Shown in pieces: positions 644-61,171 of a stretch of DNA of 64,000 nucleotides; the stretch's first letter is position 1, and every line of letters starts with the position of its first letter. The notes under the pieces are model-generated. The model had not been told where the DNA came from. It searched no databases and saw only the letters and a program-made list of their open reading frames with translations. The stretch lies in the NCBI GenBank assembly GCA_035771165.1, contig JAWNZC010000013.1:728501-792500 (forward strand), in the 5' to 3' direction. This DNA comes from Paragorgia papillata. Its lineage: Eukaryota > Cnidaria > Anthozoa > Scleralcyonacea > Coralliidae. Position numbers and translations under genes: made by a program.

Positions 644-17051
<16,408 letters not shown>

Positions 17052-35000: not shown

Positions 35001-37097
35001 TATATATAATGGAAACAATATAGTTCTTGACAAAAGAGATTTGAACTAATATATTCTTGACAAAAAGACTTGAGAAAGCAGTTGGGATAGTCATACGTAC
35101 ATTCCTTTCAAAAGAACAGAAACAAATCAACGTTTACGTAAAGTCTTGACTAGAAGCAAAACCGTCAAACCGAAACTCGAAAGAAGGAAAAAGAAATAGT
35201 CAAAATAAGAACACCAACGAAGTTGAAGGCCGAAAAGTTTAAGCTTATACGGTAAAAATATAGAGCAGCCGCTCTCAGTAATCACGAACATTTAGTAGCA
35301 AAACTGTTCGAGTTTCCTTGTTTACATGCATCCTATCACTGTTAATTTTATTTTCTATTTTGTGTGTCCTTGAAGTATTTTAAACGTATCATATCCATTG
35401 CATGTTTTTTCTTGACAATGCCCGTTGTATTTTTTACCTGTGGCTGCCGTCTTATCATCTTTTAGATAGTTTTCTTATTGTAAAACTACTTGTGACTAGC
35501 GTAGTTTGTTTATAATTTGGCATAAAAAAATGAAAAAGAAATGCTGTTATGAAAACATTTTCAGCAATTCTGATTTCGAAATGAAAAATTGTTTTTAGTT
35601 TAAATAAATTTAAAATGCCATCATAAATGAATATATAGCCGTGGCAGGCAGTTGTTTGAGTAGTTTTCAAAATGCAAATATTTTAGATACCTAGCAATGT
35701 TCTTTGTAAACATGGGAAGAAGGAACTGTAAAATATAACCCTAATATTTTATGACGCCTGCTTCAGTAGCCTGGTGGTAACATCGTCGGTTGGCACGCAA
35801 GCAAGATCGAGTTCAAACCTGGGATGCGACGTACAATCGCAGAATTTCCTTCCCACTCGCGTGTAATTTCGCGTGTAAGTGGACTCCACGCGTGTCGAGA
35901 TTAGCACCCTCCCCGGGCTCCGGGCCCTCGGCCCTCCGCCCGGGCTTGGGCATCAAGCTCAATGTTGATATCTCCCCGAGATTAAATAGGTCTAAATATG
36001 AAAATATTGGGTCACCACTTAGGTGAGTGTTCAAGTCAAATCTCCCATGTTGTTTCTCCTTGTTGTGTTTACACGAAGAAGATTGAAAGTTTTCGATCTG
36101 ATTGAAACGAATGGCTAAAGTTAATCCACGCAGTGGAGTGGATTGACTTGAGATTCAAGCAAGGATCGACTTGAATGTCTCTAATCTGATTCATGTAAAC
36201 ACGGTTTGATTTGAAAATGACTTGATACGCATGAGTGAAGTTGGTGCGTGTCGTGCTAATAAATGGCAGACATTGAGGAAGCACAGAAAATAGTGTTCCA
36301 AAATCGAAAAACAATGTTCCAAGCAGATCGGATTCTCCATGCAAACATGTGCCCGGATTGACGTCATTCGCGTTTTTCGATCCGATTGGACTGTCAATCG
36401 CTTCATGTAAACAGGGCCTAAGTCGCGAACAGCTCGTATAAACGTCGATTCTGGAATAAGCCCCGGGCTTATTTTGGACTACATGACCGTTTATACGAGC
36501 TGTTCGCGACTTATTTAAGCCACGACCTATTTTGCCCCTTATAAAAAGGCCCTAATATGACTGAACTACATTTTTACTTTGTGGACACTTTTTTATTTTG
36601 GATTTTGTGTTCCTGGGGTGACTTCAATTTTATCTCCCAGGGTCACCAGGGCTTGCACGTTAGCTGAAAATCTCGAAGCAGGCGAGACTTCGGCTTCTTG
36701 ATATAAAATCAGCATGTCATTGCTATGATGTATTTGTCTTGGATAATTATTTTATATAATATTTAGTAAATACAGGTCTTGATAGTCAAGTGTCTTCAAC
36801 ATCCAATAGCTTTATTCAAATTGTTCAATCTGTACTTGAAAAGATATTTCCCTCTTTAAGGATGTAAAAGCCAAAAAGCCAAAAGAGCTGGAGGAGGTGC
36901 TATTGAACTAAAAGCTTTGAGCGGTAAAATATTAATAGGTAGGGAATGAATATGATTCTAATAACGTTGTTGATGATGATGATTGTGATGATAATGAGAT
37001 GATGATGAACGTGAAGATAATGACGATGATGATGAACATGAAAATAATGATGATGATGATGAACGTGAAGATAATGATGATGCTGATGAGGTCGTCG

Positions 37098-41307: not shown

Positions 41308-44300
41308 AGAGAGCTCCCGGAAAGTTGGTAGTGAAAGGGTTAAGCAGTTCCGTCACGTCGTATTCAACCACCCTTGTGCCTTCTCGGCTATCACTTTGCG
41401 GTTTCCTTGCAACACCTTGGCACTAGAATGGGACAAAGAATGCAGGACTCTAGGAACACGATTAGGGTGTAGAGAGATACGTTGTCTGATAATGTTAAGC
41501 CCAGTTCCCACTTATTATAGATATTATGTGGTTGCTATTTTTATTGTATATAAATGTGTTTTAGTCTCCCAAGGATGTAAACAAGGCAGTAAAGCTCCTT
41601 CAAAATTTTACCAAACTGCTGAACAACACTGAATCGTATAATAAGATGCCAGAATATTGCTATGTGAGTATATAAACGAAAACCTCAAATTTTGCTTTGT
41701 AGCAATAAGTGAAGTGAAGTGAAGCGAAAGGAAGTGAAGTGAGGTTGAGTGAAGAAAAGTGAAGGGAAGGAAATGGAGGGAAGTGAAGTGCGGTGAAGTG
41801 AAATGAAGTGAATAAAGTGAACTGAAGTTGAAGTGAAGTGAAATGAAATATGAAGTGAAGTGAAGTGTAGTGAAATGAAGTAAAGTGAAGTGAAGTGAAG
41901 TGAAGTGAAGTGAAGTGAAGTGAAGTGAAGTGAAGTGAAATGAAATGGAATGAAGTGAAGTGAAGTGAAGTGAAATGGAATGAAGTGAAGTGAAGTGAAG
42001 TGAAGTGAAATGAAATGAAGAGAAATGAAGTGAAGTGAAGTGAAGTGAAATGAAGTGAAGTGAAATGATGTGAAGTGATGTGTAGCCTGAGAAAACAGCC
42101 GCCTCTTCTCGCTCGCCCCATCGCGGAAGAGACGTCTGAGCAACGAGCCAAGAAATTCCATACTGATGACGTAAATCTACCGAGATTCCGCTGATTGGTT
42201 ACTTTGTAATCATACGATAATTCAAAACTCTGCTCGACCAAGATCAACTCCAACGTTATCCCTGTTTGAAAAAAACAAAACAAAGTTAAAGCTTAATTTT
42301 TGCCAACAAAGAAAGATAGATAGTTAGTTTTTCTAACTAGCAAGTTTGAGTGCAATAAACAGCAACATTTTCTGGTAATAATTCCATGTCCTACATAACC
42401 CAGGAAAGCCTTACCCCAACACACACCCTAACCTAAGGCCAAAAATTCGTGTAAATAGGACATGGATTTATAACCCATTTTCTTATCGAAATTGAACGTC
42501 GAGCGCCACTTCCTGTCGAGACTTCAAACTATGGTAACGTAGCAACGAAGGTTTCAAATTTCATTCAACAGTTTGAAGTCTCACAGGAAGTGGCGCTCGA
42601 TGTCTGGCAAAATCGTTCAATTTCGATAGGAAAATGTTGCTGTTTATTACAACTCAAACTCGCTTTAGAAAAACTAACTATCTATCTATCTTTCTTTGTT
42701 GGCAAAAACTAAGCTTTAACTTTGTTATTTCAGACAGGGATAATGTTGCAGTTGATCTTGGTCGAGCCGAGTTTTGAATTAATTATCGTATGATTACAAC
42801 GTAACCAATCAGCGCTACTACCCGAATCTCGGTAGACTTACGTCATCAGTATGGAATTTCTTGGCTCGTTGCTCAGACGTCTCTTTCGCGAGGGAGCGAG
42901 CGAAGAAGAGGCCGTTGTTTTCTCAGGCTAAATGATGTGAAGTGAAGTGAAGTGAAATGAAGTGAACTGAAGTGAAATGAAGTCAACTAAAGTGAAATGA
43001 AGTGAACTGAGTTGAAATGAATTGAACTGAAATGAAATGAACTGAAATGAAGTAAAGTGACGTGAAGTGAAATTAAGTAAAGTGAAGTAATATGAAGTGA
43101 AATGAAGTAGAGTGAAGTGAATGGAAGCAAATGGAAGTAAAGAGAAAGAAATGAGGGAAGTGGCTCGTTGCTCAGACGTCTCTTTCGCGAGTGAAGTGTG
43201 AAATGAAGTGAAGTGAAGTGAAGTGAATTGAATTGAATTGAAGTGAAGTGAAGTGAAGTGAAGTGAAGTGAAGTGAAGTGAAGTGAAGTGAAGTGAAGTG
43301 AAGGTTGAACGACCTTCCTATAGTTTTAATTCTCAACAACATTGTTTTGTAGCGAATCTTTGGTGGTGGAGCAAGAATCGTGAATAAGATCTTGAAAAAT
43401 AATAATGCTTTCCGAGTATGTTCTAATGGATTTCCAACATTTGCCTCTTATTAGAAAATGTCACATGGAAAAGCTGAGTCAAAACACAGATGTTTCATTT
43501 ACAAATTGGCATTCAAAAAATTTAAAGTGCCTATGAAACGAAAATTAAGTTTGTCTTATTTGAACGAACACTTAAGATTAATGGTAGAGTAACATATTTT
43601 GCAGTTTTTCGTTTCCTTGCTTCGTTCTTGAGATATTTTAGTTTGTTTGATATGCAAATCAAACATTTTGACGTCACCCGTGCATAATGATTTATCGAAA
43701 AATTTATACATCTTTGTTATTATCAAATATGTTAAATAATCACTTGAAGATCTACAAGTTTAGTGTTGTGGGCTTAACACTTCTACATGCCTCATTCAAA
43801 TTAATTTGGTTTGATAATAGAAAATTCTTCTATACCACAAATGCATATTTATAACGTCAAAATGTTTAATTTGCATATCAAACAAACTAAAATATTTCAA
43901 GAACAAAGCAAGGAAACAAAAAACTACAAAAGATGTTACTCTATAATGTTAAGTATCCTTTCAAATAAGACAAACTTAATTTTCGTTCCATAGGCACTTT
44001 AAAATAATTTAAACGTATAGCTAGGTGAACGTAGTGAAAAGCAGACTATGGTTGGGATAGTATTGATGGTGGTTGTGATAGTAGTTAAGGTAGTGATGGT
44101 GATGATGGCGGTGGTTAAGCTGGTTGTACTGGTGGTAGTGATGGTGGTGGTGATAGTGGTGGTGATGGTTAAGGTTGTGGTGGTTGTTGTGATGGTGGTA
44201 GTAGTGGTGATGGTACCAGTGACGGTAGAGTATGTGATGATGGTGGTCATTGTGATAATAGTTGTGGTAATAGTGGTGGTGGTGGTGGTGGTGGTGGATA

Positions 44301-47300
44301 AGGTTGTGGTTGTTGTAGTGATGGTTGTGGTAGTGGTGATATTAGTAGTGCTGGTATAGTATGTGATTATGGTGGTGGTTGTGATAGTGGTGGTGGTGAT
44401 TGTGGTGATGGTTGTGGTGGTGGTGATGGTAGAGTACGTGATGATGGTGGTGGTGATGATAATAGTGGTGGTAATAGTGGTGGTAATAGTGGTGGTAATA
44501 GTGGTGGTAATAGTGGTGGTAATAGTGGTGGTAATAGTGGTGGAAATCATGGTGGTAATATTGATGATAATAACGATGGTGGTTTGTCGTCGTCGTCGTG
44601 GTTGTTGTCGGCCCTTTAGCGAACTTATATTATGCATGTTATAAAGAAGTCATTGGTGCCCGAAATAACACGCGACATAAATAGACTTGCTGTAGCTTCT
44701 CAAGATTTTTAATCTTCATTATATAATTTTTGTTTTTTACTGAAGCCCGAAACCCTCCTGGTAACGTTTTCTGATTTTGTGTCGGCCTTCTTAAAAACTG
44801 AACGACTTTATCGCCGTATGGAAAAAAAGGACTTCTCGAATCTCAGTGAGTATTTGTCAAAGTATAATATTCTTTTTGTTTATAAAAATTTTGTTGTTGT
44901 TAATGTTGTTGTTGTTTATGTTTATGGTTATGTTGTTGTTCATGTTCGTGTTGTTGTGGTTTATGTTGTTTTTAATGTTGTTTGTTTTTTTACGTTGCCG
45001 TGTTTATGTTGTTTTATCATGGTGCTGGTCGTGATGTTGGTGGTGCTGCTGGTTGTTGCTAGTGGTGATGGTGGTGTTGATGGTGGTTGGTGCTGGTGGT
45101 ATTGTAATTATGCTGGTGTTGATGTTGATGGTGGTCTGTTGGTGATGGTGGTGTTGTAGTGATGCTGGTGGTCTCGATTGTGTAGTTGGTAGTGTTGGTG
45201 TTGGTGTTGGTGCTGGTGGTATGGATGGTGGTGTCAGTGTTGGTTGGCGCTGGTGATGTTGATTGTGCTGGTTGATGCTGGTGATGTTGGTGGTGGTGGT
45301 TGGTGCTGGTAGTGTTGATGGTGATGTTGGTGCTGGTGGTGTTGGTGGTGCTGGTGCTTGTATGTTGTTATTATTATTCATGGTTGTTGTTATATATGAG
45401 TCGTAGGCGATCTTACTAACATCTACAGTGAGATGCAATTCTGTAACCGAACTTGTTTTCTCAAAGATTATAGATTTGAAGTTTTCAATGGCAGGCGGGA
45501 CAATCCAGAAGCAGCAATTAAAGATATCGTTGAGATTTCACTGGATAATGTAACCAATCACGACAACTGTACGCCAAACTGTAAGTACGGAAGTTCACTT
45601 GTTTATAACATCTGCAATCGAGGACGTTAGCTGTATTTGCAATCATAGGTTTCTCAGGCGTTTTTGGACGTTTTTCTACACATTGGCCAAAGACTCAGGT
45701 CTTTTGTCCAATCAGTGTGTAAAGAGTGTGTTTGTTGCGTTTTAGGCATTGTGAAAGTATGTCTTGTGAAGATAAAGAAGATGAGCCTCAACATAACAGT
45801 CGGGTAATTCTTTAACGTTAACTCTGTGATTCCTTTTTGATTCGAAAGGAACCGAATATAAGATATGAATATTTTTAAGATACCTTAATACTCAGAAACA
45901 CGTCCGAACGCTAGGTGGGACTCGAGCTCGCAATCTTGCAAATGCTATGTCTTGGAGTTGGTAAACTTTGTTCAGTTCCGAATGCTATAGCTGGATACTG
46001 CAACCAGCGAGCCAATAGAACTCAGATGGTAGACCGAGCTTCTTTTATAATATTTAGACTTGAGAATGAGTCAAACCGTACGTGCTTGTTAGGCTACAAG
46101 TCGCATTGTGTATAGTATTTTTCAGTTAAATGTTTTTCTACGTTAGTATAGTGTTTGCAGCTTGAAGTCTGTCATCTGAGTTCTAGTGGCTCAATGGTTA
46201 GAGCGTGCTGCTAGAATTCTGAAGGTTATGGATTTGAGTCCCGTCTGGGAGCTCACAGTTTCTGAGTTTAACAACTTACGACAGCTTGTACAGCAATAAC
46301 AAACAAAACTTTACCAACGACATAGTTCAATGCTACTCTGGCTTAAAACGTAGCTTAAAAAGTTACTGTTCATGATCCAACGTTTCGATAATCCGATCTA
46401 GTGTCTTCATCATGAGGGGTGATCGTTGTGAAGATGATGAAGACACTAAATGAAGACACTAGATCGGAGTGTCGAAACGTTGGGTCATGAACAGTAACTT
46501 TTTAAGCTACGTTGAAAAAACGTTTAAGGCAGAGTAGCGTTAAACTATGTCTTGTTCTTCACCTGGCTGCGTTGGGAGTTTATTTGTTAACGTTAGCTTG
46601 TGAACTGCAAACAAATCAACAATAATATCGACGCCATTTTTTAGTTATCGTCAGTTAAACATGAAGCCGAAGAAACTCGTATTATTTTCTACTGCAAATA
46701 ACAAATTGTAAATTTGAGGAGTCGTCAATACTGTAATGGCTTGTATTATTTGTACGCGTGAAGATGTCGAACTCGTTATATTCCTTTCTTGTTCTTAGAG
46801 GAAAAGAATATCTTCTGCGGAGGTCTATTATCTTAGTAGAGATGGTTGTCAATGGGAGACGTGTTACAGAACTTGGAACACAACATGCGATTGTCAAAAT
46901 TCCTTTGGACCCAAAGGTAGGGGAAGACAAAACAATGTTGTTGTATTTTTTCAAACGTTGTTTGAAAAGCACCATTGTTGTATATTTTTAATTTGTTTTT
47001 CAAGTATACTTCACTTTGTTTTATTTCATTCACTTTATTTCACTCCATTTCACTCCATTTCACTTCGCCTCGCTTCGCGTCGCTTCACTTCGCTTCACCT
47101 CGCTTCACTTCACTTCACTTCATTTCACTTCATTTCACTCTTCTTTACTCCACTTCAGTTCACTTCACTTCAGTTCACTCCACTCCACTCCACTTCACTT
47201 CACTCCGCTCCACTTCACTCCACTCCACTCCACTCCACTTCACTCCACTTCACTGCACTCCACTCCACTTCACTGCACTCCACTCCACTTCACTTCACTT

Positions 47301-50300
47301 CACTTCTCTTAACTTCACCCCACTCCACTCCACTCCACTTCACTTCATTTAATTTCACTTCACTTATTTAAGTATTATTACATATATTGATTCAAAGGGA
47401 GAAATTAGACATGATATGAAGTGTGCGTATTTGGATGCGGAATCTAACAGTACTACAAAGGAATGGAGTGTCAAAGGTGTTGAATTTCATTCATTTGACA
47501 CAAACAAGAAGATCGCGAAGTGCAAGATCAATCACATGTCAAATTTTGTAGTGTTGTTTGCTGTTGAAGAACCGGTAAGCCTCCTTGATATTATTCTCAC
47601 TTTGAAATTTACTTCTAAAATTTTGAAATCCCAAAAAGTGCCACAAGCCGGGTTGTTGAGATACCAGTGTGTGGCGAGTGTGACTTCCCTGCGAGCAGAG
47701 CCTCCTGTATCCTTGCGAGGCGAAGGAAAGGAAACTCTGCCGAAATCGTGTATTTTCTTTGATGTCGCCGTCGCCCAAGTGTTGTGGCGAGACAAACCAA
47801 TTCAGTTCCTGTTTCAACAGGTTTTGATACGCACGGCTATATTTAAACGTAAACGTGGTGACTAATATTTGAGCCCAAGTCATAGATCGATGTTGTCAAG
47901 TTATTCTGAAGATTCGAACAATTACGAGTAACCTGCGAATACACCCGCCTCGGATATCTATTCTTTTCACAACGAATTCGATTTGCGATAAATTCAAAGA
48001 TTTCCTATCAAAAGCGAACGATTTTTCAGTCATCAAGCAGGACTTCCTGTTGAATCTTTAAATTGTCGTTTGAATCTTTAAATTGTCGTTTGAATCTTTA
48101 AATAGTCGTAACCTAGCAACGTGCGTTTCAAATTTCACTCATTGGTGAGAATGCCTGTTCAACTGTCTGGACATGAAGTCCTGCTTGAAGACAGAAAAAT
48201 CGTTCGATTTCGATAGGAAATCTTGCAACTTATCGCAAATCGAACTCGTTGTTTTAAGAATAGCTATCCGTTTGCTTTGTTTGGTAAAAACTAGGAATTT
48301 AAGACACAAACTGAGCACCATTTAAATCGTATCTGGGCAACCGTCACGCTTGCTCAAATGAAAAAATACGCGATTTCGGCTGTCTCCTTTCCTTCGCCTC
48401 GCAAGGGTGCGGGAGGCTCTGCTTGCAGGGTAAGGTGTGGCTGTTCGCGACTTATTTAAGCCACGGCTTGTTTTGCCCCGTATAAAAGGCCCTAATATGA
48501 CTGCACTACATTTGTACTTTGTGGACACTTTTCTATTTTGGATTTTGTTATCCTGGGGAGACTTCAATTTTATCTCTCACGGTCACCAGGGCTTGCACGT
48601 TAGCTGAAAATCTCGAAGCAGGCGAAACTTCAGCTTCTTGATGTAAAATCAGCATGTTATTGCTATGATGTAGTGATACGTTGTCTGGTAATGTCAAGCT
48701 TAGTGCCCACTTATTATAATTATTATATGGTTGCTATTTTTATTGTATATACATGTGTTGTAGCTTCCCAAGGATGTAAACAAGGCAGTAAAGAGTATTC
48801 GACATTTAACCAAACTGCTGAACAACACTGAATCGTGTAAAAAGATGCCAGAATATTGCAATGTGAGTAAAAAAAGGAAAACCTCAAATTTTGCGTTGTA
48901 GCAATAAGTGAAGTGAAGTGAAGTGAAGTGAAAGGAAGTGAACTGAACTGAAGTGAAGTGAAGTGAAGGGAAGTAAGGGAAAGGAAATGGAGAGAAGTGA
49001 AGTGAAGTGAAGTGAAGTGAAGTGAAGTGAAATGAAATGAAGTGAACTGAACTAAAGTGAAGTGAAGTGAAGTGAAGTGAAATGAAATGAAGTGAACTGA
49101 AGTGAAGTGAAACGAAGTAAAGTGAAGTGATGTGAAATGAAATGAAGTAAAGTAAAGTGAATTGCGGTGAAGCGAAGTGAAGTGAAATGAAGTGAACTGA
49201 AGTGAAATGAAGTGAAATGAAATGAAGTGAAATGAAGTAAAGTGAAGTGATGTCAAGTGAAATGAAGTACAGTGAAGTGAAGTGAAGTGAAGTGAAGTGC
49301 AGGTTGAACGACCTTCCTATCGTTTTAATTCTCAACATCATTGTTTTGTAGAGAATCTTTGATGATGGAGCAAGAATCGTGAATAACGTCTTTAATAATA
49401 ATGTTTCCCGAGTATGTTCTTATGGATTTCCAACCTTTGCCTTTTATTAGAAAATTTCACATAGAAAAGCTGAGTCAAAACACAGATGTTTCATTTTCAA
49501 ATTGGCATTCAAATGATTTAAAGTGCCTATGAAACGAAAATTAAGTTTGTCTTACATATTTTGCAGTTTTTCGTTTCCTTGCTTCGTTCTTGAGATATTT
49601 TAGTTTGTTTGATATGCAAATCACACATTTTGACGTCACACGTGCGTAATGAGTTATTGAAAAAGTTATATATCTTTGCTATTATCAAATATAATAATCA
49701 CTTGAAGATCTGTATGTTTAGTGTTGTGGGCTTAACACTAGCCTGCGCACAGGCCTCCTGTTGCTGTGTCATTACTCGACCGAGTCTAGGTTTCGGATCC
49801 GTGTCTGTTTCTGGGGTTTTTTTTGACAGTGACTATGCCCGCAATGCTTACAACTGCACAAATAAATAATAGTGAAGACTTGTAGGAGCGGTCAAAGCAC
49901 CCGATTTCAATCATAGAAACTATCACATTTAGTTGCGTAGCTTCTCTGCGCAGTTATTTGTCGGCCAGTCACTGCCATGAATTCTTAACTTTTTCGGCTA
50001 TTTGTAATTTGTGTGCCTATCCGACTACGTCAACTACGATGAACAACACTTTACTTGTTTTCACTTTGGTTTATACGGAGGCGCGGCGCTTCGTCGCTCG
50101 TAGAGATCGACTTGTGGCAAGTCTAGCGTGGCGCATATCTTACACAAAACTGGCCAGTACGCCATTTCTTCTAGGTATTGATAATATTACCTTTAGTACG
50201 GCTGCAATAACAACTCGCGATCGAATGACGATATCCTACACCAACTACACGCGTAAAAATCTCGCAAGTTGTTACAGCATTGTTGCCTGAACAATGCTGT

Positions 50301-53300
50301 ATGTAACAACTTGTTGACATGTGTGAAGAACATTGATGAATTAACAACATTGTTCATCATTGTTTCAACATGTTGTTACTGCTTGACGAAACAACAACCG
50401 TTGTTCACGCATGTTGTAACAAGCGAAGCAGGTTCAATGAACACATTCAATGTTCAATGATTCATTCAATGTTCAATCATCACATTCAATGTTCAATGAG
50501 TCATTCAATGTTCATGTTGATACATCAACCATGTTTACCATTGTTGTAACATTGTTGTTCATCGTTGTTATTTCGTCATGCTGTTACAACGTGTTGTATC
50601 ATGAGCTAGTTTCGAATAGTTTCGTCCGCAAGATTCTTGACTACTTAATGAATGAACACGATAAAGCGACATTCACTGAGAAAGAAATTACAGAAAAATA
50701 TCTTTCTGGAGATCTATTTCTCGAGGAGATAAACGTATCATATAAAACTATGCGTCAGTACTCGCTCCGCCGTTGGGTTTTAAACACATATAAATTCCAA
50801 TCATATATAGTTTCAACACTACACTCGCAATTTTGGAGCCAGTCTAGATCAGAATTCAGATGCGTTTTAAATCAGTTGCGGGAGAGTCAGTATTTATGAG
50901 CAGCTCAACCCTCTAGTCTTCTTCAAATGCATATTTACAACTTGAAAAAGTTTAATTTCCATATCAAACAAGCTAAACTATCTCAAGAACAAAGCAAGGA
51001 AACGAAAAACTGCAAAAGATGTTAAGAGGTTGTGGTGGTTAATGTGGTGGCGATGTTAAGAGGTTGTGGTGGTTAATGTAGTGGCGATGTTAAGAGGTTG
51101 TGGGGGTTAATGTGGTGGTGATGTTAAGAGGTTGTGGTGGTTAATGTAGTGGCGATGTTAAGAGCTTGTGGTGGTTAATGTGGTGGTGATGTTAAGAGGT
51201 TGTGGTGGTTAATGTAGTGGCGATGTTAAGAGGTTGTGGTGGTTAATGTAGTGGCGATGTTAAGAGGTTGTGGGGGTTAATGTGGTGGTGATGTTAAGAG
51301 GTTGTGGTGGTTAATGTAGTGGCGATGTTAAGAGGTTGTGGTGGTTAATGTGGTGGTGATGTTAAGAGGTTGTGGTGGTTAATGTAGTGGCGATGTTAAG
51401 AGGTTGTGGGGGTTAATGTGGTGGTGATGTTAAGAGGTTGTGGTGGTTAATGTGGTGGCGATGTTAAGAGGTTGTGGTGGTGATGGCGGTGGTGGTTAAA
51501 GTGGTGGAGGTGGTGGTAGTGATGGTGGTGGTGATAGTGGTTAAGGTGGTGATGGTGATGATGGCGGTCATGGTTGTTGTGATGGTGGTAGTAGTGATGA
51601 TGGTAGTAGTGATGGTAGAGTATGTGATGATGATGGTGGTTGTGATAATAGTGGTGGTAATAGTGGTGGTGGTGGTTAATGTGGTGGCGATGTTAAGAGG
51701 TTGTGGTGGTTAATGTGATGGTGATGTTAAAAGGTTGTGGTGTTTAATGTAGTGATAGTAGTGATGGTGGTTAGGGTTGTGGTGTTTGTCGTTCTTGTGG
51801 TGTTGATAGTGGTGGTTGTTAAAGTGGTGGTGATGGTAGTGGTGGTGGTTGTGATAGTGGTGATGATAGTGGTGATGGTGATGGTTAAGGTGGTGGTAAT
51901 GATGGTAGTGATGGTGGTGGTGATAGTGGTGGTGATGGTTAAGGTTGTGGTGATTGTTGTAATGGTGGTAGTAGTGGTGATGGTAGCAGTGATGGTACAG
52001 TATGTGATGATGATGGTGGTGGTTATGATAATAGTGGTGGTAATAGTGGTGATGATGGTTCAGGTTGTGGTGGTTGTTGTGATGGTGTTAGTAGTAGTGA
52101 TGGTAGCAGTGATGGTAGAGTATGTGATGCTGGTGGTGGTTATGATAATAGTGATGGTATTAGTGGTGGTGGTGGAGAAGGTTGTGGTGGCTGTAGTGAT
52201 GGTTATGGTAATATTAGTAGTGATGGTAGAGTATGTGATGATGATGGTGGTTGTGATGGTAGTGGTAATAGTGGTGGTGGTGATGTGTGGATAAGGTTTT
52301 GGTGGTTGTAGTGATGGTTGTGGTAATAGTAGTTGGTAATAGTGGTGGTGATGATGGTGGTTATGGTTGTGGTGGTTGTGGTGATGGTTGTGGTATTGAT
52401 GATGGTAGAGTACGTGGTGGTGGTGGTGATGGTGGTGGTAATAGTGGTGGCAATAATAGTGGTAATATTGATGATAATAATGGTGGTGCTTTGTCATCGT
52501 CGTTGTGGTTGTTGTGTTGGTCTTTTGTTGAACTTATATTAAGCGTGCTATAAAGAAGTCATTGCGTGCCCGAAATAACACGCGATATAAATAGGCTTGC
52601 TGTAGCTTCTCAAGATTTTTAATCTTCTTTTTATTATTTTTGCTTTTTACTGAAGCCCGAAACCCTTCTGGTAACGTTTTCTGACTTTGTGTTGGCCTTC
52701 TTAAAAACTGAAGGACTTTATCGCCGTATGGAAAAAGACTTCTCGAATCTCAGTGAGTATTTCTCAAAGTATAATATTCTTTTTGTCTATAAAAATTTCG
52801 TTGTTGTTAATGTTGTTGTTGTTTATGTTTATGTTGTTGTTCGTGTTCGTGTTGTTGTGGTTTATGTTGTTGTTAATGTTGGGGTTTTTTTACGTTGTCG
52901 TAGTTTATGTTGTTTTTTTAAGGTGCTGTTGGTGGTGGTGGTGATGTTGGTGGTGTTAGTGTTGGTGCTGGTTGTTCCTGGTGGTGTTAATGGCGGTGAT
53001 GTTGGTGGTGGTGGTGTTGATGATGGTTCGTGCTGGTGGTATTGTAATGATGCTGGTGGTGTTGATGGTGGTGCTAATGGTGTTGTAATGATGCTGGTGG
53101 TCTTGATTGTGTGGTTGGTGCTGGTGGTGTTAATGATGGTGTTGATGGTGCTGGTGGTATTGATGGTGTTGTTGATGGTGTTGTTGGTAGTGTTGGTGGT
53201 GCTGGTGGTGGTGCTGATGGTGGTGCTGATGGTGGTGCTGAAGGTGATGGTGGTGTTGATGGTGGTTGGTGCTGGTGGTGTTGTAGTGATGCTGGTGGTC

Positions 53301-56300
53301 TTGATTGTGTGGTTGGTGCTGATGGTGTTGGTGCTGTTCGTAGTGTTGGTGTTGGTGTTGGCGCTGGGTGGTGTAGATGGTGGTATTGGTGCTGATTGGT
53401 ACTGGTGATGTTGGTAGTGTTAGTGTACGTAGTTGTTGCTGGTGGTATTGATGGTGGTGGTGTTAGTGTTGGTGCTGGTGGTATTGATGGTGGTGTTAGT
53501 GTTTGTGCTGGTGGTATTGATGGTGGTGTTAGTGTTGGTTGGTGCTGGTAATGTTGTTGATGGTGGTGGTTGGTTTTGGTGATGTTGATGGTGCTGGTTG
53601 GTGCTGGTAGTGTTAATGGTGGTATTGGTGGTAGTGTTGATGGTGGTGTTGGTGCTGGTAGTGTTAAGTGTTAGTGTAATTGTTGGTGCTGGTGGTGTTG
53701 ATGGTGGTGTTGGTGCTTGTGTGTGGTTGTTGTTGTTATTATTCATGGTTGTTATATATGAGTCGTAGGCGGTCTTATTAACATCTACTAGAGTGAGATG
53801 CAAAACTGTAACCGAACTTGTTTTCTCAAAGATTATACATTTGAAGTTTTCAATGGCAGTCGAGACAATCCAGAAGCAGCAATTAAAGATACCGTTGAGA
53901 TTTCACTGGATAATATAACCAATCACGACAACTGTACGCCAAACTGTAAGTACGGCTGCTCACTAAATGTTTATAACATCTGCGATCGAGGACGTTGGTT
54001 GTATATGAAATTTATATACATTGGTTTCTTAAACATTTTTGGGAAGTTTTTCTCCCAACTGGCCAATTAGACTCCGTTTTTTTGTCCAATCAGTGTGTAA
54101 AGAGTGTGTTTGTTGCGTTTTAGGCATTGTGAAAGTATGTCTTATGAAGGTAAAGAAGATGATCCTCAACATAACAATGGGGTAATTCTTTAACTCTGTG
54201 ATTCCTTATTGATTCGAGAGGAACCGAATATAAGATATGAATATTTTTAAGATATCTTAATACTCAGAAACACGTCCGAACTCTATGTGGGACTCGAGCT
54301 TGCAATCTTGCGAATGCTATGTCTTGGAGTTAGTAAACTTTGTTCAGTTCCGAATGCCAGCCAGATACTCTAACCAGCGAGCCAATAGAACTCAGATGGT
54401 AGACCGAGCTTTTTTTATAATATTTATACTTGAGAACGAGTCAAACCGTATGTGCTTGTTAGGCTACAGTTATGTCATTAAGTAATTTTCAGTTAAATAT
54501 TTTTCTACGTTGGTATAGTGGTTGCAGCTTGAAGTCTGTCATCTGAGTTCTAGTGGCTCAATGGTTAGAGCGTGCTGCTAGAATTCTGAAGGTTTTGTAT
54601 GGGTTTGAGTCCCGTCTGGGAGCTCACCGTTTCTGAGTTTAACAACTTACGACAGCTTGTACAGCAATAACAAACAACTTTACCAACTTCGAGTTGAAAC
54701 ACTATACTAACGTAGAAACTAACGTTAGCCCAGACTCAGACATAGTTCAACGCTACTCTGGCTTAAAACGTAGCTTAAAAAGTTACTGTTCATGATCCAA
54801 CGTTTCGATAATCCGATCTAGTGTCTTCATCAGGGGTGATCGTTGTGAAGACGGAGTGTCGAAACGTTGGGTAATGAACAGTAACTTTTTAAGCTACGTT
54901 CAAAAAACTTTTAAGCCAGAGTAGCGTTAAACTATGTCTTATTTTTCACCTGGCTGCGTTGGGAATTTATTTGTTAACGTTAGCTTGTGAACTGGAAATA
55001 AACTCCACAATAAATAATATCGACGCCATTTTTGAGTTATCGTCAGGTAAACATGAAGACGAAAAAACTCGTATTATTTTCTACTGCAAAAACAAATTGT
55101 AAATTTGAGGAGTCGTCAATACTGTAATGGCTTGTATTATTTGTACGCGTGAAGATGTCGAACTCGTTATATTCCTTTCTTGTTCTTAGGGGAAAAGAAC
55201 ATTTTCTGGGGAGTTCTATTATCTTAGTAGAGATGGTTGTCAATGGGAGACGTGTTACAGACCTTGGAACACAACATGCGATTGTCAAAATTCCTTTGGT
55301 CACAAAGGTAGGGGAAGAGAAAACAATGTTGTTTGTTCTTTTCAAACGTTGTTTGAGAAGCACCATTGTTGTATATAATTTGTTTTTCAAGTATACTTCA
55401 CTTCGTTTTATTTCATTCACTTTATTTCACTCCATTTCACTTCGCTTTGCCTCGCTTCGCTTCACTTCACTTCACTTCATTTCACTTTTCTTTACTCCAC
55501 TTCAGTTCACTTCACTTCAGTTCACTTCATTTCACTTCATTTCATTTCACTTCACTTCACTTCACTTTTCTTTACTCCACTTCACTTCACTTCACTTCAC
55601 TTCACTTCATTTCACTTTTCTTTACTCCACTTCAGTTCACTTCACTTCACTTCACTTCATTACACTTCATTTCACTTTTCTTTACTCCACTTCAGTTCAG
55701 TTCACTCCACTTCACTTCACTCCACTCCACTTCACTTCACTTCACTTATTTAAGTATTATTTTGTTTAATATATATTGATTCAAAGGGCGAAATTAGACA
55801 TGATATGAAGTGTGTGTATTTGGATGCGGAATCTAACAGTACTACTAAGGAATGGAGTGTCAAAGGTGTTGAATTTCATTCATTTGACACAAACAAGAAG
55901 ATCGTAGAGTGTAAGACCAATCACATGTCAAATTTTGCAGTGTTGTTGGCCGTTAAAGAACCGGTAAGCTTCCTGGATATTATTCTCACTTTGAAATTTA
56001 CTTCTAAAATTTTACCCCCAAAAGTGCCACAAGCCGGCCTGTTGAGATACCAGTGCATGGCGGATGTGACTTCCCTGCGAGCAGAGCCTCCTGTATCCTT
56101 GCGTGGCGAAGGAAAGGAGACTCTGCCGAAATCGTGTATTTTCTTTGATGTCGCCGTCGCCCAAGTGTTGTGGCGAGACAAACCAGTTCAATTCCTGTTT
56201 CAACAGGTTTTGAATCGCACGGCTATATTTAAACGTAAAAGCGGTGACCAATATTTGAGCCAATGTCACAGATGTTGTCAAGTTATTCTGAAGATTCGAA

Positions 56301-59300
56301 CAATTAGCACGCTTACTCGTACGAGTAACCTGCGAATACAGCCAGCCGCCTCGGATATCTATTCTTTTCACAACGAGTTCAATTTGCGATAAATTCAAAG
56401 ATTTCCTATCAAAATCGAACGATTCTTCAGTCATCAAGCAGGACTTCCTGTTGAATCTTTAAATAGTCGCAACCTAGCAACGTGCGTTTCAAATTTCACT
56501 CATTCGTGAGAATGCCTGTTCAATTGTCTGGACACGAAGTCCTGCTTGATGACGGAAAGATCGTTCGATTTCGATAGGAAATGTTGCAATTTATCGCAAA
56601 TCGAACTCGTTGTTTTAAGAATAGCTATCTATAAAGACAGAAACTGAGCACCACTGCATAAGGAAATTAAATTGTATCCGGGCAACCGTCACGCATGCTC
56701 AAATGAAAAAATACACGATTACGGCAGTCTCCTTTCCTTCGCCTCGCAAGGATACAGGAGGCTCTGCTCGCAAGGTAGGGTGTGATTGCCTCCGCTCAAA
56801 AAGAAAAGCAAAAACAAGAAACGCAGCCTTTAAAGTGGTTCTCTGATGAAAATATTGTTGGTAATGTTTCTTCATAATTCTAAAGATATTGTGGTAGTTG
56901 GTAATCGTGCAAAGTTTATTTTACGTGCGAAGTTTGTATTTTGGAGCTCCGCCATTAAATTGGCCGTGTTTGAGATGAATGAGTTGAGGAGAACTTATGA
57001 CGTCATAGACTCAACAAAAACAAAAGATCATTGTTGTTGTCAACAAAAGGGTCATTGTTGTTATTGAGGCTATGACGTCATAAGCTTTCTCGACTCGCTC
57101 TTCTCAAGCTCGTCCACTTTAATGGCGGCGCTCCAAAATACAAACTTCCCACGTAAGATATCACCTTTTCTTCAACGAATTTTGAAATGAAACTTTGCAC
57201 GTTTACTAACCACCAAAACATCTTTGGGATTATGCAAAAACATTGCCAACAATATTTTCATCAGAAAACCATTTAAAGTTTTTTTCCGTTTGTACAGCTT
57301 GTACAGCAAAAACAAACGTAAAAAATCTTTACCAACTTCAAGCTGGAAAAATTACTACTAACATATATAAAGAACTGAAGCTTTTGTCGGCAAATGATGC
57401 TCAACCTTGACTTTGTTGGCAAATATCTTTAATAATTTTGGTCGTTAAAGGGCAATAGCACTAAAAATTAAGTTTGTCTAATTTGAAAGAACGCATAAAA
57501 TTGTAATAGAACATCCTTTACAACTTCTCCATACTTTACAATCTCTCTTCGTTTTCAAGATATTTCAATTTGTTTGATATGTAAATGAGATGGTCTCTGA
57601 CGTCAGGTGTGGGGTAAAATATTTTCACATGTAGCAAAACCAGTTATATCTCTAAGTTTGTTCAGCGAAATCATATGAAACTGTGCACATAAAAACTCCT
57701 TGCGACGCTGAACATTTCATGTTAGATATGTAAGTGATTTTGCTCTGAATGAAAATATTTTATCCCACTCCTGACGTCAGAGACCATCTCATTTACATAT
57801 CAAACAAATTGAAATATCTTGAAAACGCAGAAAGATACGAAAAAGTTGTAAAAGATCTTCTATTACAATTTTATGAGTTCGTTCAAATTAGACAAACTTA
57901 ATTTTTAATGCCAATCCCCTTTAAAGGAAGGCTGTATTTGCCGCTGTGATTGTCAGATTCTGAGCCCACAATGCTATTATCTGTAGTTTCTGGAGGTATT
58001 ATCTGTAGGGAAAAGGACTTATCATGCATGTGCTGACGTCATCTATTCAGCTAAGCAAAGCGAAGAAAACCGCGGGAAAGAAGCAACTGTCTTTGAATTG
58101 CGTATTTTGAACGTTTTTTCGTTTTGGGAGAGTGATTTTCTTTACATTTTCAACTGAATTATACATTGAAAATGTATAATAAAACAATTATTGAATTCGA
58201 CTTTTTTTGTATCAAGAATTATCAAGGTCTCAGATCGCATTATCAGCCTGACAGCCTTTGGCTTCGGCAGATAACACAGACTTCAACTTTGATAATTCTT
58301 GATATCAAAAAAGTCTCATCCAATAATTGTTTAATATCTGTTTTTTAAGTGTGGATGAAGTGAAAAACTCGTTGGCATTTTTGTTGTTTCAATGAACAGA
58401 GAAGCATGGTAGGACATTCACTGAAAATGTTAAGAGAATCTGGTGTATAGTGTTCAGTTCAAGGGCGACGCATCTAGGGGGGCTAAGCCCCCCTAGACAT
58501 GGCAACAAGATGATGTTTTTGAAAAGGAATACTACTTTCCAAACACAAGAAAAATTTTAGATTCTGTTCAAAAGTGCTCTTAAAATGCAGGAAAGGCCAT
58601 TTTAGAGCCCCAAAATTTGGGGGGAGCACGCCGCAGGACATGTCAAAGTTTACGACGACGCCTCTTTAGCCGGTGGTTTTGCCCCCAGCCCCCCTACTTT
58701 CAAAGATGTTCCGCCGCCACTGGTGTTCACACTATTGACTATTCAATTTTGCCGTGGCTAGGTTTGTTTTCGGTAAAAAGTTTGGCTCTCGGTGACAAAT
58801 TTTCAGTGAGTGCTTCTACCACGATGCTCATATATACTAGAATTATCTCCCCATGCTCGACTTTCGCGACAGCCGAACGTGGTTGCATGACTTTTGCGTT
58901 CTGATTACACACTTTTAAAACCTGACTTGCTTTATACAACAGACTTCTGACGGGCACAAGTTTGCACTGGATCTTATAAGTTATATTGGCTGTGGCCTGA
59001 CGTTGTTAGCTGTGGTCGTTACCTTGGTTATATATCTGATTTTCCGGTATGTATTATAGTTTGGATGTAGATAGTTTTTACTTTTCTCTTTTTCCTGATA
59101 CTATCTTGACTAGACCGGCATCGGATCCACCCTTCTGAAAATTTCACATGTTTTTCACATGGGATTCATATGTGATCACATGCATCACATTATTTTTTGT
59201 GTTCACGTGCTTTTAACACTGACTTATATATAACTGGACTGCGGGTACTCTGTATCAATGACTGACAAAAGGTGACCGATCCATGCACGATGGCGTGCCT

Positions 59301-61138
59301 TCTCCCACAGTAGTAACCGCTTGTCTTTTTTGACTGACTGGATTGATATCGGACTGCGGACTCGCTTGAGCCCACTATCAGATAAACGTGTTGGACAGGA
59401 TAAGATCAGCTGATGCTACCTATAGCTCAGTGTTTTCACGTACTGTATGGAAGAGTTAATTACCGAGAACCGAGGCTTTTAGACAAATACTTTATTTCGA
59501 TAAAAGCCGAGGTTCGAGGTAACTAACTGACTTATTTAATAGTCGAGGAGGTTTTCTAAAAAGCATATCAATATACACTTAATGTCTGCTCGCGAGGGAA
59601 ACAGTTAGTTTTGTTTTCCCGAGAGTCTCTATGTTTCCCGAAACGAGTCGAGGGAAAGCAAAATAAATGTTTCCCGAGGGATCAGACTATTGTTATATAG
59701 CTTGAGTTTCGCTGAATAATTTCGACGTTTATCAACTCGGGAAAGTACACAAAAGACCAAAAAAATTACGCCTGGCTTCGTAATTTCAGTTCAACTAAAC
59801 ATGCAAATATGAGTCTCAGAACAAAAGAACAGCAATACATTTCTCCAATTAATATTCACACATGCTTTGATCAACACCTATAAATAATCTTATTTGTACC
59901 AAACAAGCTTTTGTTTATAGGATACCGTGAAGAGTTCAAAGTTCTGGCGGCCAACAATTGCAATGTTATTGACCAAGTGGACAATAAGTTTTCAATTGTT
60001 GCCCGCTTGGTCGTCATTGAAATTTAGCTAAGGTTATGTGACCACAAACCAACCAATGACAGTCACCGTTTTATCCAGCAAAACTCTAGCTATACAACAA
60101 GTAATAGATAAAGCCCGAGAACGAGGGCTGTATGATCGCATACAGCCCGACGTTCGAGGGTTTTATTTGACTTATTTCATGATTGAGGAGGTTTTCCAAC
60201 AAAGTTTTGCCTATTTTTTCCCACCTTGGACAAAGATTTTCCTAGTTTTTTCTTCATTTCTTATCTAATTAGTATTCATAGGGCTGCATGCTATATACAG
60301 CCCGTGGGACATCAAAGAAAACCGACTCAATCATGAAATAATTACTATATATTGCACTGTTGACCGGGGCAATATCTAGATATTGCCCTGTTGACCTGGG
60401 CAATATCTATATATACAACCCTTGAATTTTTAATTATTGGTTCTCTTGGGATGTATCGATACATCTCTAGAAAGAACAAAGAAAACCGACTCAACTATTA
60501 AATAAGGTTCAGATGTGGAATCATTTCACGTGTTCAATCTTACATGTGGAATTTTCATGAGAATTAGTCGGCTGATTGCTGATGAGACACCCCAAAGAGA
60601 TCATATGCAATATACATTAGAGGGAACAAGAGGACCCTGGTTATCTTTAATATTATATGTCTTGAATTACTTAATCTTGTCTGTGTTGTATTTTGATCTT
60701 GAAGCAAAGATGCACCAATATTTTCTGTGGATCAAAACATTGTGCATGTTCATTTGATGGTCTCTCTGGCGCTTGTTCAGATCGTTTTCCTGGCTACACT
60801 TGGAGTAAGGACGTCCCCAGTAAGTTATCTCTTTGGATAGTATGAGATGGGTGGGTGTTTGGTTGGGTCGGATAGATAGATCGAATGCATGGATGGATAG
60901 ATTGGTGGATAAGTGGGTGGAATATGATAACTCGAAATATAATAAGGTTGGATATACTGCCGCAACGTGGAACGTAGAAGTCTAACGTTTCGAGCGAAGG
61001 CCCTTCGTCAGAGAGAAACGTGGATGGATGCATGGATGGATGGATAGGTGAATGGGAGGGCTTATGGATGGATGGATGGATGGATGGATGGATGGGTGGA
61101 TAAATGGATGGATGAATGGATATATGGATGGATCGAGG

Positions 61139-61171
<33 letters not shown>

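Follow-up and report, generated by a model that had tools for sequence, protein, structure and literature searches.

In current models of adhesion G protein-coupled receptors (GPCRs), one GAIN domain sits beside the membrane, and the tethered agonist is released when this joint opens. ADGRF1 and ADGRF5 carry a SEA domain together with a GAIN, giving two possible self-cutting places in one ectodomain. Outside the class B2 seven-transmembrane (7TM) receptors stand the polycystin-1-like proteins and the sea urchin egg-jelly receptors. Extracts of PMC13197933 describe both as membrane proteins with a self-cutting GAIN. The phrases "two GAIN", "multiple GAIN" and "tandem" are absent from extracts of a 2026 review and from a paper on GAIN numbering (14,435 domains), and a phrase search of the literature, with most subscription papers outside its scope, returned no description of a double GAIN. 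Here we analyze 64,000 nucleotides of the octocoral Paragorgia papillata (C13:728501-792500, hereafter the window, from an assembly of 617.9 Mb in 473 contigs), which hold two adhesion GPCR genes on the + strand, gene 1 (gamma) and gene 2 (delta). Gene 2 is an adhesion GPCR by its 7TM and GPS, and we judge it probable, from sequence comparison, that two GAIN-type modules lie in series at the end of its ectodomain. In common with ordinary adhesion GPCRs (ADGRL3, ADGRD1 and octocoral G6/G7-like receptors), gene 2 has an H-[LM]-[ST] GPS, an agonist-like last strand, a class B2 7TM and a long ectodomain; in contrast to them, it has two GPS with one cysteine pair missing, while a single GPS stretch was found in all 10 of the ordinary receptors scanned out of 35 matches. 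Unlike ADGRF1 and ADGRF5, which pair two different kinds of domain, it pairs two GAIN-type modules. Its features are as follows, where coordinates without a contig prefix are window positions and those prefixed C13:, C12: or C75: are contig positions.

26545-41112, + strand: ectodomain, nine exons x1-x9, with a signal-peptide-like start, Gly-rich
41565-47574, + strand: first GAIN-type module, E3-D3, 243 residues
41565-41663 (E3), 43353-43415 (F3), 44746-44845 (G3), 45467-45580 (A3), + strand: first-module exons
45746-45803 (B3), 46799-46916 (C3), 47398-47574 (D3, the GPS exon), + strand: first-module exons, continued
48764-55963, + strand: second GAIN-type module, E4-D4, 241 residues
48764-48862 (E4), 49352-49411 (F4), 52656-52752 (G4), 53832-53945 (A4), + strand: second-module exons
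54124-54181 (B4), 55190-55307 (C4), 55787-55963 (D4, the GPS exon), + strand: second-module exons, continued
58943-63042, + strand: 7TM exons T1-T6, with the first transmembrane segment (TM1) at 58943-59046

All 14 module exons and the TM1 exon form one open frame, and across the 1,048 residues read in gene 2 the introns have AG/GT borders and no stop is present. It is therefore in accordance with a preliminary description of this DNA, made from the sequence alone, that both seven-exon modules lie in a single receptor frame, that each ends in NHMSNF and that the second runs into TM1, D4 being joined in frame to T1 so that the GPS adjoins TM1; the lengths given there, 257 and 255 residues, were not reproduced. 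Both modules are very probably present in one protein. At the Pfam GPS cut-off of 22.5 bits, both pass (24.1 bits for the first and 32.8 for the second), and the second is followed by a Pfam 7tm_2 match of 134.7 bits, a score that covers the window part only, with TM6-TM7 outside. The remainder of the 7TM lies beyond the window, where C13:792501-795000 is N, and this run, one of two in the cluster described below (the other is 680001-685000), probably hides the end of the 7TM. The unit was also described as phase 0/0, which holds, as exon E starts and exon D ends in phase 0; the end of E, the start of F, the end of C and the start of D are likewise in phase 0.

The preliminary description called these modules two complete GAIN domains, of which one part stood: a GPS is present in both, and the C-terminal part can be assigned by homology. 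A profile built from 34 other adhesion GPCRs aligns with the last ~92 residues (146-237) as GAIN subdomain B (probability 97.1), and some BLASTP matches extend further upstream, such as residues 82-236 of the second module of gene 1 (gamma2) against P0021 (E 1.8e-4). The N-terminal part, in contrast, is assigned by a helix/strand pattern. Over exons E-G, 14 of 14 windows show a helix-like hydrophobic periodicity, and 20 of 25 windows over A-D a strand-like one, both read without a shuffled control; the switch comes at the exon G/A border, and the assignment of the first ~145 residues rests on that pattern. Extracts of PMC11697300 put a GAIN at 2-6 helices with 12-14 strands, a subdomain A of 2-6 helices being sufficient, and according to extracts of PMC13197933 GAINs with a short subdomain A self-cut. 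Two GAIN-type modules are thus well supported, while two complete GAIN folds are what we infer.

Gene 2 is the fourth of five genes that stand in a row on C13 (alpha, beta, gamma, delta and epsilon), mapped by searching exon peptides against C13:630001-860000. The double module occurs in three of the five (alpha, gamma and delta), two of which are in the window. The intron before E4 shows how the double module could have arisen: 234 bases that resemble the x4-x5 intron (36499-36732, 93%) are followed directly by 234 that resemble the intron before E3 (41473-41706, 88%), and TGTA is common to both parts at the join.

48440-48672, no strand assigned: relic of the x4-x5 intron within the D3-E4 intron, a duplication scar

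The identical join is found before the second modules of gamma and alpha (gamma2 and alpha2), and the D-to-E junction DNA matches at the three loci at 100%, 99% and 92-94%, the last in two pieces. A full-length junction was found at no fourth place when 40 of 734 first-look candidates were scored. In a tree of the seven cluster modules, first modules split from second modules with a support of 99, the three second modules group together (80), gamma groups with delta (95 and 93), and epsilon is nearest to the second modules. Because the tree separates first from second modules, the module would have doubled once and whole genes would have been copied later; the single junction with its upstream-intron relic, common to three genes, likewise places the doubling before the multiplication of the genes. 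A tandem duplication of the module is supported, with its junction identified. The sequence fits a simple history of two steps, in which the segment that runs from intron x4-x5 to beyond D first gave rise to a second copy in tandem, and that copy later lost x5-x9. Apart from the scar, the D3-E4 intron contains at 47684-48433 a dispersed repeat with inverted arms that is present on many other contigs, with a copy also after D4.

Gene 1 carries the double module on another 7TM.

682-2734, + strand: gene 1 first module, exons A1-D1 (E1-G1 are upstream of the window, C13:725311-728440)
3924-10370, + strand: gene 1 second module, exons E2-D2, the end of D2 being five codons shorter than that of D4
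13091-17051, + strand: gene 1 7TM (U-type, unlike that of gene 2), four exons, stop at 17051
13091-13209, 15026-15306, 16362-16428 and 16526-17051 (with stop), + strand: gene 1 7TM exons

This 7TM scores 41.1 bits against 7tm_2 on its first part and matches adhesion GPCR proteins down to E 2.2e-77, with octocoral sequences as its closest relatives (Paramuricea clavata 42-44%, Dendronephthya 42%, Xenia 43%). The gamma ectodomain matches that of delta at 98-100% from exon x3 on and at 93% around x1, and the modules of the two genes match mostly at 94-99%, with 89% in the last block. Between D2 and TM1, at 10486, this similarity ends, and the gamma sequence that starts at C13:741553 matches beta at 87-95%. 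The gamma ectodomain also resembles that of beta, though less closely (about 77-97%, with 88% at x3). By these alignments, gene 1 is a hybrid in which a delta-like ectodomain and double module are joined to a beta-like 7TM (beta: C13:695065-699150), so the double module has been combined with another 7TM.

Each module of gene 2 would fold as a compact GAIN of about three helices and a beta sandwich, and self-cleavage may take place in both, between the Met and the Ser. Cutting at both sites would leave three pieces held by two non-covalent joints: the ectodomain with the body of the first module; a middle piece, in which the last strand of the first module continues into the second; and the 7TM, which has the tethered agonist at its tip. 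Opening of the membrane-near joint would proceed as in known receptors and free the usual tethered agonist beside TM1. Opening of the outer joint, in contrast, would shed the Gly-rich ectodomain and leave an agonist-like strand at the tip of the second module. Since that strand would be away from the 7TM, the outer joint would serve as a fuse, decoy or spacer and not as a direct activator. In short, the receptor might separate at two points instead of one.

Several observations weigh against two self-cutting GAINs in one receptor. The Pfam GAIN family PF16489 gives no match to the modules at E<=1, and neither profiles nor alignments give a signal upstream of the GPS or once the GPS is removed; the missing PF16489 match is not decisive, because a match at E<=0.01 is likewise lacking in 5 of 10 ordinary adhesion GPCRs (2 of the 10 pass the cut-off). 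The ratio of nonsynonymous to synonymous substitution (dN/dS) of the modules is near 1 (0.61-1.76 in 21 pairs), so purifying selection on residues is not shown. At the cut sites, all 10 copies read lack both the Cys that follows the GPS Trp and the Cys two positions ahead of the His; we take these two to pair with each other, which their joint loss would fit. Disulfides near the GAIN cut site are common but not required by definition. In extracts of PMC13197933, two highly conserved disulfides end near the cut site, CxCxHL/T. The preliminary description had proposed that the receptor could cut itself at two places, and on this point the evidence is divided: the H-M-S triad is kept in both modules, and in all six modules of the double genes, with H-L-S in epsilon and in a copy on contig C12, whereas the two conserved Cys are gone, so cutting cannot be assumed. 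From the sequence, we consider it possible, if somewhat doubtful, that both sites self-cut. The complementary arrays in the module introns, described below, could in addition remove parts of a module.

A rival explanation, an assembly artefact or a decayed extra module, draws on the 83% protein identity between the two modules of gene 2 and on their repeat-rich introns. Yet the same scar is found at three loci, and the modules within the gene, at 83%, are less alike than the matching gamma and delta modules, at 93%. The seven copies of the seven-exon module in the cluster also have no stops (7/7) and keep their frame, and the borders of their 49 exons are AG/GT save one acceptor, that of epsilon exon E (TG). 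Without constraint, the ~189 substitutions of the tree should have produced ~7.9 stops, and the probability of none is ~4e-4. We therefore regard this explanation as extremely improbable and a local assembly error at D3-E4, which the preliminary description had named as a possible flaw, as very unlikely; chance, too, is an unlikely source of the observation. Along the genes, 6 of 10 pairs have a dN/dS under 0.7 in the GPS exon, with 2.6-2.9 in two, and the 7TM exons give 0.43-0.94 (four comparisons). Judged by these ratios and frames, the genes are coding, and their modules evolve quickly under selection that is either relaxed or diversifying. Such fast change, together with the missing pair of GPS cysteines, could also mean that the outer module no longer cuts and only adds length to the ectodomain, which would tune how much force arrives at the membrane-near GAIN. 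In extracts of a study of fly dCIRL, the mechanosensory response falls gradually as the N-terminal part is lengthened, and the receptor depends for its activity on the tethered agonist and not on autoproteolysis (PMC5548486); an outer module that stays uncut could thus tune force as well. However, each of the three outer modules retains H-M-S and the agonist-like strand, and the inner modules lack the same cysteines, so that their loss does not mark the outer one; we find an uncut spacer improbable.

A further explanation is that alternative splicing leaves most mature receptors with one GPS, because arrays in the introns fold the pre-mRNA and exons F-C or D3 + E4 are skipped or become circular. 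In gene 2 the arrays are the following.

41707-43352 (approximate), no strand assigned: (AAGTG)n arrays, intron E3-F3
47012-47397 (approximate), no strand assigned: (CACTT)n array, intron C3-D3
48906-49351 (approximate), no strand assigned: (AAGTG)n array, intron E4-F4
55399-55786 (approximate), no strand assigned: (CACTT)n array, intron C4-D4

All seven cluster modules have this layout, with 27-84 AAGTG copies in intron E-F and 16-37 CACTT copies in intron C-D, against 0-8 copies of either in the other module introns. Across the 240 kb surveyed, every dense run (at least 12 copies per 200 bases; 9/9 for AAGTG and 7/7 for CACTT) falls in introns E-F and C-D, and the C12 copy repeats the layout with YACTT. 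The predicted AAGTG/CACTT duplexes reach -234 to -414 kcal/mol, well below the means of -116 to -144 for their controls, which were single-letter shuffles, 10 each. The closest complementary pair is formed by arrays C3-D3 and E4-F4, about 1.5 kb apart, and exons F-C as well as D3 + E4 are in-frame units by the phases given above. Moreover, reverse complementary matches in flanking introns promote both skipping and back-splicing in Caenorhabditis elegans, according to extracts of PMC8330042. Against this, the copies are young (C12 and delta2 differ at a synonymous divergence, dS, of about 0.09, and their introns can still be aligned), and common arrays may be mere inheritance; single-letter shuffles in tens are also a limited control for the energies. 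On balance, we think it unlikely, though worth taking seriously, that most mature receptors carry one GPS. The preliminary description had held isoforms with one or two domains to be equally possible: they are possible by phase, but the arrays make F-C or D3 + E4 likelier to be skipped than a whole E-D unit. The arrays and the two-joint receptor could also be combined, such that RNA folding inserts or removes the outer joint, giving a two-GPS fuse form and a one-GPS form without D3 + E4, while recombination moves the double unit between 7TMs; this we regard as a speculative and rather unlikely combination.

A natural receptor with two GPS would allow asking whether the position of the agonist or mere shedding matters, and which of its joints is the first to open under force. 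A further question is whether cutting survives in a GPS without one cysteine pair. Natural controls exist within the cluster: genes with the same ectodomain carry either one module or two, and the double module is joined to either of two 7TM types. The 7TM is T-type in alpha, delta and epsilon and U-type in beta and gamma, and ectodomain exons are common to beta, gamma, delta and epsilon; no alpha ectodomain was seen in C13:620001-640571. Epsilon shares ectodomain exons, module type and 7TM with gene 2 but has one module and one GPS as far as read. Beta likewise shares ectodomain exons and 7TM with gene 1 but has one canonical GPS (CRCNHLTNF) as far as read, and a further module is possible there, part of the gene being hidden by the N run at 680001-685000.

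Outside the cluster, an own-genome search (75 matches at E<=10) pointed to single-module relatives at C75:339116-347537, C12:1978092-1985360 and C13:2881974, of which the C12 copy was read over its module and the other two at the GPS exon only. The C75 copy (C75:347340-347537) has H-M-S with the GPS Trp replaced by Cys, and the third (C13:2881950-2882160) has H-F-S. In epsilon, the TG acceptor of exon E is at C13:825669, where use of an AG that lies nine bases into the exon would preserve the frame, and exon G contains an in-frame internal duplication of 39 bases. The gene 2 ectodomain, which matches no Pfam family at E<=1, is full of Gly runs. Segments that flank its exon x5 turn up again close to other GPS genes, on C13, C12 and C338; one that adjoins x5 in the cluster genes other than alpha is also present at C13:610785.

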